Notes under the pieces: model-generated
What the model was told of the DNA's origin: nothing
Database searches by the model: none
What the model saw: only the letters and a program-made list of their open reading frames with translations
Position numbers and translations under genes: made by a program
Shown: piece by piece, positions 33,811 to 41,171 of the stretch
How the letters are laid out: every line of letters starts with the position of its first letter
Numbering within the stretch: the stretch's first letter is position 1
NCBI GenBank assembly: GCA_012033105.1
Contig: JAAUPN010000004.1
Location: 1-48,175, forward strand
Direction of reading: 5' to 3'
DNA from: Coleofasciculaceae cyanobacterium RL_1_1
GTDB lineage: Bacteria > Cyanobacteriota > Cyanobacteriia > Cyanobacteriales > Geitlerinemataceae
DNA length: 48,175 bases

Positions 33811-34211
33811 TCACCCCATCAAAATCACGTTATCGATCACATGAATCATGCCGTTATCGGCTTCAATGTCCGCCGCTAGCACCGTAGAATTTTTCACCTC
33901 AAAGCCCTCGGTTCCATCAATCGGAATCGGTGACCCTTCGAGCGAGACCACCGTTCCCAGCTTGATCAGCTCCGCTTGGGTGTACTTGCCCGACAGCACG
34001 TGAAACTTGAGAATGCGGCCAAGCTGGGGCGGATTTTGGACGAGAGTTTGCACCGTGCCGGGGGGCAATTTGGCAAAGGCATCATCGGTAGGCGCAAACA
34101 CGGTAAAGGGGCCAGGGCTTTGCAGCGCTTCGACCAAGCCCGCCGCCTGAACTGCGGCGACTAGAGTGGAGAAGCTGTCGTTACTTACGGCGATATCGAC
34201 ATGGTAGGCAT
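33811..34211 (-). CDS. cupS: CupS, fasciclin-domain subunit of the NDH-1MS CO2-uptake complex (frameshift near start)
   Basis: CupS is the small soluble subunit of the inducible NDH-1MS complex. The product has one fasciclin domain ([52 protein letters not shown]). The usual N terminus [12 protein letters not shown] can be read from ATG 34211 only if one T is added near 34200 (ATGTC to ATTGTC); this gives 133 residues. As written, the domain is in frame with a non-conserved upstream extension to 34254. It is the last gene of ndhF3-ndhD3-cupA-cupS. Confidence 0.88.
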
Positions 34212-34335
34212 AGAGAGTTTTAGAGTGTAGGGTTTGAAGTTTAGGGTTGCACACCGATCATTGAGGACACGCGTAGCACACGCATCCGGCTTGTCCCAAG
34301 GCAAGCTAGACGCTTGGACTACGTGACATCACCCC

Positions 34336-35622
34336 CTAGCGGTAATCCTGACGTTGAATACTCTTGAGGCGAGCTTCGGGGCGCAGGAAGCGATCCATCT
34401 GAGCTTCAAAGAATTTGCGGTTTGCCATCTGGTGACGCGGATTTTGATCATCGAGTGGGTACAACAGGGCGGCGCGTAGAGCCTGAATGACCGCAGAGGT
34501 GACGTTATACATCGATCGCTGAAATGTAATCCCAAGCTGGATCAGCTCATCGTCTTCACCGCGATACTGCTTCGCGTAAAACTCCTTGAGATAGGGTGGC
34601 AAAAAGTGCAGCATGTCCTGCATCAGCAGTGTCGGTGGAATGCCCGCACTGCCAACCGGGAAGACATCGGCGTACAAAATGCCGTAGTGAAAATCCTTTT
34701 GTTCATCCGGAACCTGATTGGCCTGAGCATTATAGGACTTCGTGCCACGGAAGGGAGCCGTACGATAAAACACCGCTTCAACGTAGGGTAATGCTGCTTC
34801 ATAAAGCCAGGTAAAACCGGCGGATTTCGGAATGATTTCGTAACATTCATCGCCGATATACAGATGATGATAAATCGGACGACCGGCTACGGCAAAAATA
34901 CCGTTTACCAGAAATTCCATCGCTTCAGGAACCGTCGTCATTTTGCCTTCATCGTATAGATCCGACATTTCAAAAAACACCGGAGCCATCACTTCCCAGA
35001 ACAGTCCGAGATTGGCGTAGTACGACAATTCACGCACTTTCTCTAGGAACATGGTTGGGAAGAGTTTGTATAAACCCAACATCAGCGGGTTGCCTTTGAA
35101 ATAGGCTTTGATTGCCCGATCGGCATTGGCGATATACTCCTCGCTCTCCAGATAGTCATAAAACTGGCCGCCCATACCTTGATGCCACAACATCGCCCGC
35201 ATACAGGCTTCGGCAAATTCCATATTGACGCGATCGTGCCAGAGGTGATGCCAAAGTTTCGGCATTTTGCCGGTTTCACCGCGATCGATGAATTCCCGTA
35301 GTTCGGGGTGAGCATCCGCTTCGCCGCGCCAGATGCGCAGGTCGGCTCCGTCTCCGGCGTAACTATTGGGGCGATCGAGATAGTCCTTGGAAATGAAATA
35401 TTTAAACGCAGGAATCGGATTTAGAAACACTCGCTCGGCAATGTAAAGCAGATCCCGCCAGTAAAAATCCATCGGTACGGCATAGGCTTTATAAATACCG
35501 ATGATTTGCATCAAGTTTTCTGGCGTGTCGGGTAGCATCGACCCGCCCGCTTCGAGACGATGGATAATGTCAGAAAACGGATGGGTGGATGGGGGAATGA
35601 CAGATTTGAGGGTCGTGGTCAT
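34336..35622 (-). CDS. cupA: CO2 hydration protein CupA (ChpY)
   Basis: CupA couples NDH-1MS to conversion of CO2 to bicarbonate on the thylakoid cytoplasmic face. I start it at ATG 35622 (MTTTLKSVIPPSTHPF), giving 428 residues; a TTG nine codons earlier is less likely. Recognisable stretches include FYWRDLLYIAERVFLNPIP, SYAGDGADLRIWRG, and several His-rich points (WHHLWHDRVN, YHHLYIGDECYE) that may bind metal. The place next to a CupS gene and ndhD3/F3 indicates CupA rather than CupB. No clear Shine-Dalgarno sequence. Confidence 0.93.
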   Translation of the reverse strand: MTTTLKSVIPPSTHPFSDIIHRLEAGGSMLPDTPENLMQIIGIYKAYAVPMDFYWRDLLYIAERVFLNPIPAFKYFISKDYLDRPNSYAGDGADLRIWRGEADAHPELREFIDRGETGKMPKLWHHLWHDRVNMEFAEACMRAMLWHQGMGGQFYDYLESEEYIANADRAIKAYFKGNPLMLGLYKLFPTMFLEKVRELSYYANLGLFWEVMAPVFFEMSDLYDEGKMTTVPEAMEFLVNGIFAVAGRPIYHHLYIGDECYEIIPKSAGFTWLYEAALPYVEAVFYRTAPFRGTKSYNAQANQVPDEQKDFHYGILYADVFPVGSAGIPPTLLMQDMLHFLPPYLKEFYAKQYRGEDDELIQLGITFQRSMYNVTSAVIQALRAALLYPLDDQNPRHQMANRKFFEAQMDRFLRPEARLKSIQRQDYR

Positions 35623-35748
35623 GGCTTGATGTGGGTAGGAGGGAGACAAAAGTGGGGATTATTTCTACGGCTCAAATATGATGAAGTTGGGGCGAGGCGT
35701 AAGGTCGTGCGCTCACCATTAAGGTCTACACCGACTGAGTTCCGGCGA

Positions 35749-37308
35749 CTAAGGATTCAGTTGGGGGGCTGAGAGGGAGGGCGACAAGCTGGCGATCGGC
35801 GGGTTCGCCACCTGACTGATGACCGGGAGCGCGATCTCCTGAGCTGGGAGCGCTGCAACAAAGTGATCGCTAGTCGGCTCCATCCAGCGCACCAGCCAGT
35901 TGGGCTGAAGACCAAAAATGACGACGATCGCCACCAAAACGACCGAGGGGAGACGTTCTGGCAGGGTGACGCGATCGTAGTAGGCCAGCGAATTATCGAG
36001 CTTGCCGAAACAGGTTCGGTTTAGCAAGATCACGAAGTACACCGCCGTTAGTCCCGAGGACAGGATGCACAACAGCGTTGGAATGGGAAAGACGGAAAAA
36101 CTGCCCTGAAATACGAGGAATTCGGCGGCGAAGCCGACCATACCGGGAATCCCTGCGCTCGCCATCCCAGCGGTGATCAGTAGCGTACTGATGAGCGGTA
36201 AACCCCGGATGGGATTGAGCAAACCGTTGAGTGCATCGAGATCGCGTGTACCGGTTTTGGCTTCTACCAGACCGACAAGATTGAATAACAGCGCCAAAAT
36301 TAAGCCGTGGGCGACCATCTGGGCGATACCACCGAGAACGCTGAGTTCGGTTCCAGCGGCGATCGCCACCAGGATGTAACCCATATGGCCGATCGAGCTG
36401 TAGGCCACCATGCGTTTGATATCGCGCTGGGCGATCGCGGCGAGTGATCCGTACATGACGCTAATTGCGCCGATAATCGCCAATCCTGGCCCGACGAGAG
36501 ACCATGTTTCGGGGAACAGTTCGAGGCCAAAGCGAATTAGGCCATAGGTTCCAAGTTTGGCGAGGATGCCACCGAGCAGGATGGCGATCGGCGGTGAGGA
36601 TTCGACGTAGGCATCCGGTGACCAGGTGTGGAGTGGTACGAGGGGGATTTTGATGCCCAGGCCAACGAGGAGGAGCGTCAGGGCGATCAGTTGGGTTTTG
36701 AGGTCGAGGTGAGCGGTGGAAATATCGGCATAGTCAAAGCTGATGAAATCACCACCGACCCAGGCGACGACCAAAAAGGCCGCCAGGATTAAGATGCCGG
36801 AAAGGGCGGTGTAGAGCAAAAATTTTGTTCCGGCATACCCCCGTCTTTCACCACCCCAAATGGCGATCAGCAGATAAACCGGGATCAGTTCTAGCTCGAA
36901 GCACAGCACGAACAGGAGCAGATTTTGGGCGAGAAATGCGCCCGTCACTCCGGCACTGGCGATCAACAGTAGAGCGTAGTAGAGCTTGGGACGATCGAGC
37001 TGATCACTGGTACTGTAAATCGCGATGATGGTCAGTAGAGTGTTGAGTACGACCAGCGGCAGCGAGAGGCCATCGAGACCAAGGTGATAGTTCAGGCCGA
37101 TCGGGGGAATCCAGGTGTGAGCTTCGACAAACTGGAGGCTGAATGCCTGGAGATCGAATTGAGTGGCGAGGTAAATTGACCCGAGGAAGGTGATCACGGC
37201 GGTGATCAGGGCGAAGAGTTTGGCTCGGGTCGGTGCGATCGCGGTGTCGGGAAACAGGCCGATGGTGATCGCCCCGATCAGGGGAATCAAGATCAGTGCA
37301 GTAAGCAT
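35749..37308 (-). CDS. ndhD3: NDH-1 subunit NdhD3
   Basis: NdhD3 is an antiporter-like proton-pumping subunit of the inducible NDH-1MS complex in thylakoids. The 519-residue product has about 14 hydrophobic spans. Family features include FELELIPVYLLI, HTWSPDAYVESSPPIAILLG, ILAKLGTYGLIRFGLELFP and QRDIKRMVAYSSIGHMG. The operon context (cupA and cupS after it, ndhF3 before it) supports D3 rather than the D1 or D4 paralogues. ATG start with weak AGGT. Confidence 0.94.
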   Translation of the reverse strand: MLTALILIPLIGAITIGLFPDTAIAPTRAKLFALITAVITFLGSIYLATQFDLQAFSLQFVEAHTWIPPIGLNYHLGLDGLSLPLVVLNTLLTIIAIYSTSDQLDRPKLYYALLLIASAGVTGAFLAQNLLLFVLCFELELIPVYLLIAIWGGERRGYAGTKFLLYTALSGILILAAFLVVAWVGGDFISFDYADISTAHLDLKTQLIALTLLLVGLGIKIPLVPLHTWSPDAYVESSPPIAILLGGILAKLGTYGLIRFGLELFPETWSLVGPGLAIIGAISVMYGSLAAIAQRDIKRMVAYSSIGHMGYILVAIAAGTELSVLGGIAQMVAHGLILALLFNLVGLVEAKTGTRDLDALNGLLNPIRGLPLISTLLITAGMASAGIPGMVGFAAEFLVFQGSFSVFPIPTLLCILSSGLTAVYFVILLNRTCFGKLDNSLAYYDRVTLPERLPSVVLVAIVVIFGLQPNWLVRWMEPTSDHFVAALPAQEIALPVISQVANPPIASLSPSLSAPQLNP

Positions 37309-37381: not shown

Positions 37382-39238
37382 CTACAGCCCTGCGGAGAGT
37401 AAACGCAGGGCTGGCAAGCTCATAATCAGGATGAAGATGGCAACACTGAGAATGATCGACAACACATAAAACTGCGATCGACCCGACGTGTTGTACTTCA
37501 AGCTTTCGCCACCGAAGACCGCTGCAACACCGACCAGATTGACCACACCATCGACAATGTAGCGATCGAGCCAGTTAATGAACCGCGACAGTTGGCCAAT
37601 CGGCGACACCAGCAGCAGCTTATAGAGCTGTGGCGTATAAAAGTCGTAGGCCAAGAAATCCCGCAGCGGTTGTGGCACCAGCGTTACGGGCGGCTTTGCC
37701 GTCGGCGCGAGGTAGAACAGGCTACCGATCGCCACACCCAATAGGCTTGACCAGGTGACGATCGCCCCGATCGACGGCGCGAGTGTATTCATCTGCGGCA
37801 AGATCTCCCAGGCCGCGAAAAAGAGCGGCACATGCAGTGCAAACCCTGCCAGCACCGTGGTCGGCAACACCAACAGCCACAATCCTTCCGGCGATCGGCG
37901 CGTCCAATCGGTCACCACACCACCAAACATCAAACCAAACAACCGCGCGACGCTGATACCGATCAAGGCGTTCGTCGCCAACACCACGGCCAACAGCGCC
38001 GGTTCCGACTGCCACAGCCAATCTGCCAGGGGAACCAGCGCCCAAAATCCACCCAGCGGCGGCAATGCCAGCAACGATAACCCACCGATCGCCACACACA
38101 AACCCGTCACCGGACGACGCGCCCATAACCCACCCATCTGGGTGAGGTTTTGGGTGATGTTATTCAGGACAATATTGCCCGTCGCCATCACCAGCAGCGC
38201 CATGCTGAGGACAAACACAAACAGCATCATCAATGCCGTCTGTGATGCGCCCGAGCCGATCGCGATAAACACCAGCCCGAGATATGCACTCGTGAGATAG
38301 GACAACACCCGCTTAATATCAATTTGAGCGATCGAAATTGCACTCGCCCCGATCGCCGTGGCCGCACCCGTCACGATGACTGCGCTAACCGCAAACTCCG
38401 ACAGCGCCACCACCGGCATGATTTTAATCAGCACCCATGCACCGGTCGAAACCACCAGTGTATTGCGCAAAATCGTCGCCGGATAGGGGCCTTCCATCGC
38501 CTCATCGAGCCAGAGATGTAGCGGAAATTGGGCGCACTTGGCGATCGGTCCCGCGATCAGCGCACAGGCCAGTAATGTCGCCACACGCGGCTCAAGCTCG
38601 GCAGTCGCAGCCCACTGCGCCAGATCAGCAAAATTCCAGGTTCCCGCGATCGGCAGCAGTGCCACCACGCCCATCAGCAAAATCAAATCGCCCACCCGCT
38701 TCGTCAGAAACGCATCCCGCGCCCCCGTCACCACCAGCGACTGGTTATACCAAAAGCCAACGATGAGATAGGTTCCAAGGGTTAGGATTTCGAGAATGAC
38801 GTAGCTAAAGAAAAGGGAATTGCAGAGAACCAAAAAGCATAAGCCCGCCTCAAACAGCCCCATCAGCGAATAAAACCGCGCCCAACCCCAATCCATTTCG
38901 AGATAGGCGATCGCGTAGGTTTGCGCCAATAGGTTGAGGCTCGCAATTAAACTGCACACCCCGAGGGTGAGCGATGACACCTCTAAATCTAGGGTGATTG
39001 TTAAGCCCGCTGCATCGAGCCAGACAAAGGACTCGGATGTCGCCGACTGACCCCAAATATCCGTCAGGGCGACCAGGCTATGTACCAATGCCAGGAGCGA
39101 CAGCACGACGTTGATATAGCCCGCTGGACGTGGCCCCGTCCGGCGCACCAAACCGGGCGACCAGGGCAGCGCTAACATGGCTCCGATCAGGGCATAACAG
39201 GGAATCAGCCAAACATTCTGGCTAAGTAGGTGAGCCAT
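37382..39238 (-). CDS. ndhF3: NDH-1 subunit NdhF3
   Basis: NdhF3 is the distal antiporter-like membrane subunit specific to NDH-1MS. The 618-residue product has about 15-16 hydrophobic spans and includes LTKRVGDLILLMGVVAL, FPLHLWLDEAMEGPYPATIL, IAQIDIKRVLSYLTSAYLG and a C-terminal long-helix region. ATG start; it is the first gene of the four-gene low-CO2 operon, 73 bp before ndhD3. A pair of ATAG-N8-CTAT sites lies upstream and may bind the LysR-type regulator NdhR/CcmR or CmpR, which control this operon in other cyanobacteria. Confidence 0.94.
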   Translation of the reverse strand: MAHLLSQNVWLIPCYALIGAMLALPWSPGLVRRTGPRPAGYINVVLSLLALVHSLVALTDIWGQSATSESFVWLDAAGLTITLDLEVSSLTLGVCSLIASLNLLAQTYAIAYLEMDWGWARFYSLMGLFEAGLCFLVLCNSLFFSYVILEILTLGTYLIVGFWYNQSLVVTGARDAFLTKRVGDLILLMGVVALLPIAGTWNFADLAQWAATAELEPRVATLLACALIAGPIAKCAQFPLHLWLDEAMEGPYPATILRNTLVVSTGAWVLIKIMPVVALSEFAVSAVIVTGAATAIGASAISIAQIDIKRVLSYLTSAYLGLVFIAIGSGASQTALMMLFVFVLSMALLVMATGNIVLNNITQNLTQMGGLWARRPVTGLCVAIGGLSLLALPPLGGFWALVPLADWLWQSEPALLAVVLATNALIGISVARLFGLMFGGVVTDWTRRSPEGLWLLVLPTTVLAGFALHVPLFFAAWEILPQMNTLAPSIGAIVTWSSLLGVAIGSLFYLAPTAKPPVTLVPQPLRDFLAYDFYTPQLYKLLLVSPIGQLSRFINWLDRYIVDGVVNLVGVAAVFGGESLKYNTSGRSQFYVLSIILSVAIFILIMSLPALRLLSAGL

Positions 39239-39411
39239 ATCGTTACCTAATAAACCGATAAATGATCACTTCACGTGCATCGACTAGATGCGGGCATCAC
39301 CAGGGCGATCAAGACAACCCACAGCAACGCCATAAACACACCTCACGCTAGACATACATGATCGGTGTCTTTCGTTCCTTTTTCATCGTTTTTTGACGAT
39401 AGAAAGAACTT

Positions 39412-39433
39412 AGATATAGCTAAAATACTATCT
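39412..39433. promoter_or_regulatory. Candidate regulator site 1 upstream of ndhF3
   Basis: The inverted repeat ATAG-N8-CTAT (39416-39431) sits in AGATATAGCTAAAATACTAT, about 180 bp upstream of the ndhF3 start. The near-identical site 2 lies 65 bp further. The T-rich half-site spacing resembles a LysR-type site; the regulator is inferred, not shown. Confidence 0.6.
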
Positions 39434-39476
39434 CACTTCTTTATCTAGCATTGCAAAAAAGCGATACAAAGCAAAG

Positions 39477-39498
39477 AGATATAGCCAAAAAACTATTT
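39477..39498. promoter_or_regulatory. Candidate regulator site 2 upstream of ndhF3
   Basis: AGATATAGCCAAAAAACTAT repeats site 1, matching 18 of 20 positions, and again contains ATAG-N8-CTAT (39481-39496). Centre-to-centre spacing is 65 bp, about six helical turns, so two dimers would face the same side of the DNA. Confidence 0.6.
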
Positions 39499-40191
39499 AT
39501 AGACGCAATAAGCAAAACAAGAAGTTGGCTTCACCATGGTTCAGGTTTGCCAATCTATGCCGTAGCACCACGATCGCCATCCGTACTTGGGGTTTCACGT
39601 TCTCTCTCCACCCAAGACGCGATCGGCTTGTCAGTCAAACCCACAACGCGCTGACGTAATGCGAGGCTCGAAGCATCCCAACTCTGTCGCTCTGACTCAC
39701 TCGCGCAATCCGTACATTTTTCTGGACGAGACCTAGAGGTCTTGCTATTCTTGATTTAAGTACATTATTCTTTCCCGGTTTTCCTCCCCGTCTCACCGTA
39801 GTTATTACCGTTCTTGCGACCCCGCGCGTTTGCACAACACTCCCGGTTTTGACCGTGTTGCCAATGCCTCATTCGTCTTCCACTCCCTTCACCAACTCCA
39901 CCCCTATCCCTCAAGTCCCCCCCGATTCACCCACCGACCCCAACGCCGATCAAACCTCGCTTTTATCCGCAGGACGAACCGACTCCGCGCCCAATCTCGC
40001 AACTGCCCCCCTTACGACCACCCAGTGCTTCATTTCAAGCCTTGGGCGCTGATATTTCCTGGCGTGAGATTTCGCGATCATGTACTGAAGCATCTCGCAC
40101 CGAATCCCGCATAAAACCATCCGCAACCTTGTCAGAACCTGACTCTGCTTGCGTGACGCCGTCTATTTCCTCGTCCCCATCCCTAAACTCG
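39499..40191. other. Intergenic or unassigned stretch
   Basis: A Pro/Ser/Thr-rich reading frame (39861-40052) and the frame starting at TTG 40042 precede the chosen start of the next gene. They may be an N-terminal extension of that protein split by another missing base near 40045, but I cannot support that by family resemblance. Nothing else recognisable is present. Confidence 0.3.
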
Positions 40192-41171
40192 ATGCCCCAA
40201 CCCGATCGCCGCCGCCGTTCCGCCTCCCCTGCGATCGCGCCGCAATTGATATCCTGGCTCAATCGGCGATCGGCTCCGGTGGTCTACGCCGCTAGCATTG
40301 CTCTCGGACTGCTCGCCTTGGGGACGCTATCGCGGATGGACGATCGCCCATCGCCAGGGCTGTCCGATACCGATTGCACCGGAGCAATTTTGGTGGATGC
40401 GACCCTGACGCCGGAAACGTTCGCTCAAATTCCGTCAAAAATTGGTCAAGCGCGGGCAAAGGTCGCCCAACTGATCGGTTCACCCTACTGCTCCTTGCCG
40501 AAGGTGTCCGTGCGCTATGGCGCGATCGCGGAGCGTGATGTGTATCGTATGGCGGATGAGCGGCGAGTGGTGGTGTCCTATGAGGATGGAACGCTGCTTG
40601 GGGTTGGGGTTGAGGCGTTACGGCGGGAGCATTCGGCATGGCAGGCGGGTGTATTGCAGCCTCAGACAATGGAAGAGCCTGAAGCTGCAAGCTCCAATGC
40701 GGCGGCCATGATAACGCCTCTCGGAGCGGCGGCTGGCCGCTTGCAGGAGGTGAAGGTGCAGCAGTCGTGGGGCGTGCAGATTGGCGATGCGATCGGGACG
40801 GCTGAGGTGATCGGCAGTTTGGGGGATGTGTCGTTGGCGCATCGAGGTCGGGTTTTGCGCCGGTGGATGGCTGGGTTGAGGGTAATTTTGTGACGATCGT
40901 GGGGGATGAGCTGTTGCCGAATGAGCCGGATTGTGTGCTGTTTTCAAGCCCGCAGTTACCGTCGTATCTGATGAAAGCGTGCGGCTTGGTACGGCGCTAT
41001 CTCGGGGCGGTGGAGGCAGGTCAGCCGATCGGTCGTACGGGCGGGGCGTTACATGTGTCGCTGCTGTCGCGGCGGCGAGATCAAGCGGCGAGTTCGGATG
41101 CTGAGGCGGAGTGGGTTTATGTGTCGCCATCACCGGAGTTTCTGGCGCAGGCGATCGATGGGGAGGAGTAG
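40192..41171 (+). CDS. Membrane-anchored envelope protein, barrel-like C-terminal domain (broken by one frameshift)
   Basis: From ATG 40192 the product has an Arg-rich cytoplasmic start, one membrane span (about residues 28-45) and a mostly extracytoplasmic part. The frame breaks at a run of four T (40853-40856); one more T gives HRGRVFAPVDGWVEGNFVTI and continues with LLPNEPDCVLFSSPQLPSYL to a stop at 41171, 326 residues in all. The C-terminal beta-rich domain resembles M23-peptidase-like or biotinyl-like barrels, but I do not see a zinc motif. Upstream TTG 40042 would add a non-conserved extension. It is followed by the exported protein at 41385. Confidence 0.65.

Follow-up and report, generated by a model that had tools for sequence, protein, structure and literature searches.

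The window analysed here, a 48,175-nucleotide stretch of DNA from Coleofasciculaceae cyanobacterium RL_1_1, carries on its minus strand an operon in which ndhF3, ndhD3, cupA and a gene for a fasciclin-domain protein follow one another in the order of the NdhR/CcmR target operon. Upstream of ndhF3 lies an array of four dyad-symmetric sequences that form two units, each consisting of an exact ATAG-N8-CTAT site (the primary dyad) and a degenerate partner. The array is probably (at a rough probability of 0.85) the operator through which NdhR (CcmR) controls the low-CO2-inducible ndhF3-ndhD3-cupA-cupS operon, with its composite unit doubled. Because the operon lies on the minus strand, the dyads start at the negative positions relative to the ndhF3 ATG that are included in the following lines, and the array as a whole spans -258 to -147.

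39481 to 39496, minus strand: dyad A, primary dyad of the distal unit, ATAG-TTTTTTGG-CTAT on the operon strand, starting at -258; exact NdhR consensus, identical in the congener G001.
39450 to 39465, minus strand: dyad A', partner in the distal unit, ATCG-CTTTTTTG-CAAT, starting at -227, 31 base pairs (bp) downstream of A; ATCG-CTATTTTG-CGAT in G001.
39416 to 39431, minus strand: dyad B, primary dyad of the proximal unit, ATAG-TATTTTAG-CTAT, starting at -193; exact NdhR consensus, kept in G001.
39385 to 39400, minus strand: dyad B', partner in the proximal unit, ATCG-TCAAAAAA-CGAT, starting at -162, 31 bp downstream of B; ATCG-CGAAAAAA-CGAT at a spacing of 32 in G001.
39385 to 39496, minus strand: the whole doubled composite operator (predicted), in the order B'-B-A'-A in plus-strand coordinates, with spacings of 31/34/31 bp.
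37382 to 39238, minus strand: ndhF3, first gene of the operon (TIGR01960 ndhF3_CO2, E 2.8e-256).
35749 to 37308, minus strand: ndhD3, NdhD/subunit M family (PRK07363 equivalog, above cut-off); the "3" is taken from the operon context.
34336 to 35649, minus strand: cupA, CO2 hydration protein (TIGR01964 chpXY, E 6.8e-227).
33811 to 34254, minus strand: probable cupS, last gene of the operon (PF02469, E 1.8e-37), named on the basis of its fasciclin fold, which we take to be a CupS trait.

Read on the plus strand, the two exact sites are ATAG-CTAAAATA-CTAT at 39416-39431 and ATAG-CCAAAAAA-CTAT at 39481-39496, with a start-to-start distance of 65 bp, and the 20-mers in which they are embedded (39412-39431 and 39477-39496) are identical at 18 of 20 bases. 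The two matches in the window compare with an expectation of 0.20, and the organism's 4.2-megabase (Mb) genome contains the motif at 10 places, versus 55 for the backwards-read control pattern. Simple arithmetic from these 10 places predicts approximately 0.001 pairs within 65 bp. The region is AT-rich and at least two matches were reached in 3 of 100 window shuffles, as would be anticipated if the sites were chance AT-rich palindromes, but the rarity of the motif in the genome, the confinement of its paired form to this array and its conservation in relatives make that explanation practically negligible.

Exactly 31 bp downstream of each exact site, the operon strand carries a degenerate dyad of the form ATCG-N8-CRAT. 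Two copies of the more general pattern ATNG-N8-CNAT at a spacing of 31 bp are found at no more than 2 places in the organism's own genome, both of them in this array, and the backwards control does not occur at all. In both units the second dyad thus lies about three helical turns from the first, which fits the layout of recognition-binding and activation-binding sites (RBS/ABS) of LysR-type regulators. The original prediction had described two near-identical sites, about six turns apart, within 39412-39498 ahead of ndhF3; the sites, their 65-bp spacing and the downstream operon were recovered, but the range is too short, as the array also takes in the dyads at 39385-39400 and 39450-39465, and the description as two sites is incomplete, since each of them forms a composite unit together with its partner dyad. 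In the literature searched, which did not cover the primary NdhR-site papers (Figge 2001, Klähn 2015, Woodger 2007, Jiang 2018), no account of paired or doubled NdhR dyads was recognised. Judged from sequence, the composite doubled layout would add a modest new detail to an otherwise ordinary NdhR operator.

As the partner dyads were first spotted by eye and then tested elsewhere, their recurrence in relatives constitutes the independent evidence. The congener G001, of which NdhF3 is 89% identical, retains both units and all four dyads with the units 64 bp apart; conservation covers the array but not the sequence upstream of dyad A, which has diverged. Both of its partner dyads are perfect ATCG-N8-CGAT palindromes. 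Only one unit, ATTG-N8-CGAT and ATTG-N8-CAAT at 31 bp, is present in the congener G002 (L011; the upstream sequence is the same as that of L125 of G002), and the presence of both units in G001 and of one in G002 indicates that the doubling marks a sub-clade. Among 55 deduplicated ndhF3 regions, two exact sites were found only in the window, in G001 and in G003, where they lie 23 bp apart; Nodosilinea-type loci such as L026, L035, L058 and L062 contain two dyad pairs 94 bp apart. In the Nodosilinea-type loci L026, L035, L058, L062, L063 and L071, the main site is preceded at a distance of 21 or 25 bp by an extra ATTG-N8-CNAT dyad.

The counts in relatives refer to these 55 ndhF3 upstream regions (at most 450 bp each, the window's own region and G001 included) and to 26 ndhR-like upstream regions of 400 bp. 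The ndhF3 set left out 8 of 80 CupA loci that had no usable ndhF start, 38 loci with an NdhF below 52% identity (mostly Cyanobium/Synechococcus types, one of them with no more than 36 bp of upstream sequence), L141 of G012, which contains runs of N, and L149-L152, whose NdhF matches are of lower identity, and removal of near-duplicates reduced it from 59 to 55 regions. With the proviso that many ndhF3 regions are akin (Nodosilinea-type, G007-G013), so that the counts are not independent and the shuffles ignore kinship, the exact motif was detected in 25 of the 55 regions (shuffled mean 0.47, maximum 4), and the relaxed dyad in 40 (shuffled mean 6.4); 14 regions contain dyad pairs at a distance of 31-32 bp (shuffled mean 0.01). 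Upstream of the ndhR-like genes the corresponding numbers were 10, 21 and 6 of 26, versus shuffled means of 0.175, 3.1 and 0.005. When the regions were anchored on their best site, the mean ATNG-N8-CNAT match at +31 amounted to 2.51 of 6, versus a background of 1.64 (standard deviation 0.27, offsets beyond 16), and the dyad was fully matched at +31 for 10 of 47 anchors. Higher means were obtained only at -14 and +14, where the tested dyad runs into the anchor site itself, and the value at -62 was nearly equal (2.49).

These data bear on the possibility that only the two ATAG-N8-CTAT dyads matter and that the partners at +31 survive as relics of AT-rich DNA that was duplicated in tandem. When the two units are aligned, 38 of 66 bases agree, which is duplication-like, and the partner half-sites are degenerate; nevertheless, dyad pairs at 31-32 bp persist in 12 of 53 ndhF3 regions when the window and G001 are set aside, as well as in the ndhR-like regions mentioned above, and the G001 partners are perfect, so that we regard the relic explanation as somewhat unlikely.

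The identity of the motif points to NdhR as the regulator involved. The available text of PMC13249358, citing Klähn et al. 2015, gives ATAG-N8-CTAT as the NdhR-binding consensus and names the ndhF3 operon, sbtA/B, bicA, nhaS1 and ccmR as targets. The sites upstream of ndhF3 therefore correspond exactly to the published consensus in front of a published target operon, which upholds the earlier assignment to a LysR-type site of the NdhR/CcmR kind at a low-CO2 operon; the accompanying suspicion of an unfamiliar site or a distinct regulator does not hold. A search for the motif at other carbon genes, which had been put forward as a check, was positive as well: one exact copy was found upstream of sbtA (Sbt_1, E 2.9e-67) in the organism's own genome, and congener copies were found between ndhR and bicA. 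In G002 the exact site lies between the divergently oriented ndhR-like gene and bicA (the part of this bicA that is present fits the family NF050096 BicA best, with a score short of the cut-off for full length), and in G001 an exact copy, read from the sequence, is located at -377 from ndhR on the bicA side. G002, which is 100% complete, carries the 31-bp paired pattern just twice, at ndhF3 and shortly upstream of the gene for a Na+/H+ antiporter, and G019 has one such pair, directly upstream of its ndhR-like gene. Between the site and sbtA in the organism's own genome, an open reading frame (ORF) of 98 codons (L004, 1199-1495) begins beside the NdhR-type site.

An NdhR-like protein is encoded in 26 of 29 relatives, including both congeners. 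The effector positions compared were 8 in number (R267 and other contacts fall outside this set), and at all 8 the G001 and G002 regulators are identical to Synechocystis NdhR. CmpR shares the same 8 residues, and the congeners contain a single protein of the NdhR/CmpR subfamily at E <= 1e-40, which is about equally similar to both; moreover, a TTA-N8-TAA match at 39410-39423 overlaps dyad B, and TTA-N7/8-TAA is the CmpR consensus in the available text of PMC13249358. CmpR, or a merged regulator of the NdhR/CmpR type, could therefore be imagined to act at these sites as an activator instead of NdhR as a repressor. However, TTA-N7/8-TAA is a short and unspecific pattern, the conserved core of the array is the NdhR consensus and not that of CmpR, the congeners' regulator gene is divergent to bicA, a target listed for NdhR in the same text, and in a quick tree all 26 proteins of the relatives group with NdhR while CmpR falls outside (support 0.96, with a single CmpR sequence). 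CmpR action at the array is thus improbable, and the original prediction, which had named either NdhR/CcmR or CmpR as controller, stands for the former and is weakened for the latter.

Binding of the array by another regulator was also considered. The one intact LysR regulator found in the organism's own assembly is an RbcR-like gene (L091), putatively RbcR by resemblance to that family's sequence. Its presence would allow RbcR to bind the array, and NtcA was considered alongside it; against this, the region 39239-39830 contained no match to the RbcR consensus ATTA(G/A)-N5-(C/T)TAAT, as given in the available text of PMC13249358, nor to the NtcA consensus GTA-N8-TAC, as taken from an abstract, which makes either regulator very improbable. 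A further LysR regulator gene, NtcB-like (L092, 1402-2438, on contig C224), is split over two overlapping frames as the result of a frameshift or assembly error.

Several observations weigh against an NdhR operator at this locus or against the generality of its layout. NdhR was not found in the organism's own assembly, which is 86.55% complete and in which the best matches are RbcR-like and NtcB-like proteins, and in its effector domain the regulator of the congeners is almost as similar to CmpR (49-51%) as to NdhR (50-53%). The promoter scan found no sigma-70-like promoter near the array. The exact motif is without a match in 30 of the 55 ndhF3 regions, even the relaxed dyad is without a match within 450 bp in 15 of them, and none of the 38 loci dropped for low NdhF identity has an exact site. 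The 31-bp pair search returned no matches in G003 and G016, both of which have 32-bp pairs, and its matches in G004, G005 and G007 lie away from ndhF3, so that beyond the congeners G001 and G002 the paired pattern at 31 bp is a weak screen in relatives. The sbtA copy is approximately 595 bp from the sbtA ORF, and 7 of the 10 genomic copies of the exact motif are located away from recognised carbon genes (L001, L002, L003, L005, L006, L009 and L010, examined mainly by ORF listing), those in L002, L005, L009 and L010 falling inside ORFs of at least 90 codons. Concerning the regulator gene itself, contig C36 of the organism's own assembly begins inside bicA (C36:7-483 corresponds to residues 277-435 and is 92% identical to G002); as bicA is the neighbour of ndhR in the congeners, ndhR of this species most likely fell into an assembly gap. 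The copy in L006 (1501-1516, ATAGCCATATCCCTAT) is intergenic, with a gene for GTP cyclohydrolase I approximately 580 bp downstream of it.

The leader between the array and ndhF3 contains additional conserved sequence. Just downstream of the array on the minus strand, a block at 39338-39368 that is kept in G001 holds an ACACC...GGTGT inverted repeat and could be a promoter or a 5' leader structure. The 36 bases preceding the ndhF3 ATG (39239-39274, minus strand) are identical in G001, which exceeds what a ribosome site needs. A short ORF of 20 codons in the same leader (39271-39333, minus strand, MALLWVVLIALVMPASSRCT), which has a plausible GAGGTG ribosome site, was considered as a leader peptide and rejected, because the same frame in G001 stops after four codons. 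On the opposite side of the array, two divergent plus-strand ORFs within 40042-41171 (40042-40893, without a Pfam match, and 40863-41171) overlap in different frames and possibly represent one frameshifted gene.

Taken as an NdhR operator, the array suggests the following mode of regulation. An NdhR dimer would recognise ATAG-N8-CTAT, and the second dimer of the same tetramer would occupy the weaker dyad, ATNG-N8-CNAT, which follows 31 bp or three helical turns further downstream; NdhR is described as a tetramer, a dimer of dimers, in the available text of PMC13249358. In this species and in G001, tandem doubling of the unit with a period of 64-65 bp would place two tetramers side by side, where they may cooperate. 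By analogy with Synechocystis, NdhR loaded with 2-oxoglutarate under carbon-replete conditions would keep the operon off, and 2-phosphoglycolate in carbon-starved cells would loosen NdhR and thereby induce CO2 uptake, the former effector being reported to support repression and the latter to release it (PMC13249358, available text).

Compared with the NdhR/CcmR operators of Synechocystis sp. PCC 6803 (ndhF3, ccmR, sbtA, bicA, nhaS1), the array resembles the CcmR-bound fragment in its distance from the ATG (in the accessible part of PMC3401165 that fragment extends from -333 to -191 relative to the ndhF3 start), but it comprises two exact sites, not one, and explicit partner dyads at 31 bp. With LysR RBS/ABS operators, such as the AccR target in PMC11602165, it shares a palindromic primary site and a partner approximately 30 bp towards the gene; the accessible part of that source places LysR subsites often near -65, -35 and -10, with about 30 bp between the first two, a statement made of divergent promoters. 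It differs from these operators in the proposed repressor and in the doubling of the whole unit. The regulator subfamily and the effector residues are common to the CmpR sites of the cmp operon, whereas CmpR has another consensus and an activating role (PMC13249358 and PMC7281370, available text).

More tentatively, and at slightly less than even odds, the true NdhR operator may be a two-dyad code, ATAG-N8-CTAT followed by ATNG-N8-CNAT at 31-32 bp, that is read by one tetramer; a small clade would have doubled this unit to hold two tetramers about six turns apart and to obtain steeper CO2-dependent switching, and Nodosilinea-type loci would have reached two units at 94 bp. For the genus, searches for the NdhR regulon are more selective with the 31-bp pair than with the single motif, with 2 matches (both at ndhF3) versus 10 in 4.2 Mb. 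If the paired reading is true, it would connect the NdhR tetramer seen by crystallography with a definite arrangement of sites on DNA, and the doubled operator would be a naturally occurring system in which cooperativity in carbon control can be tested.
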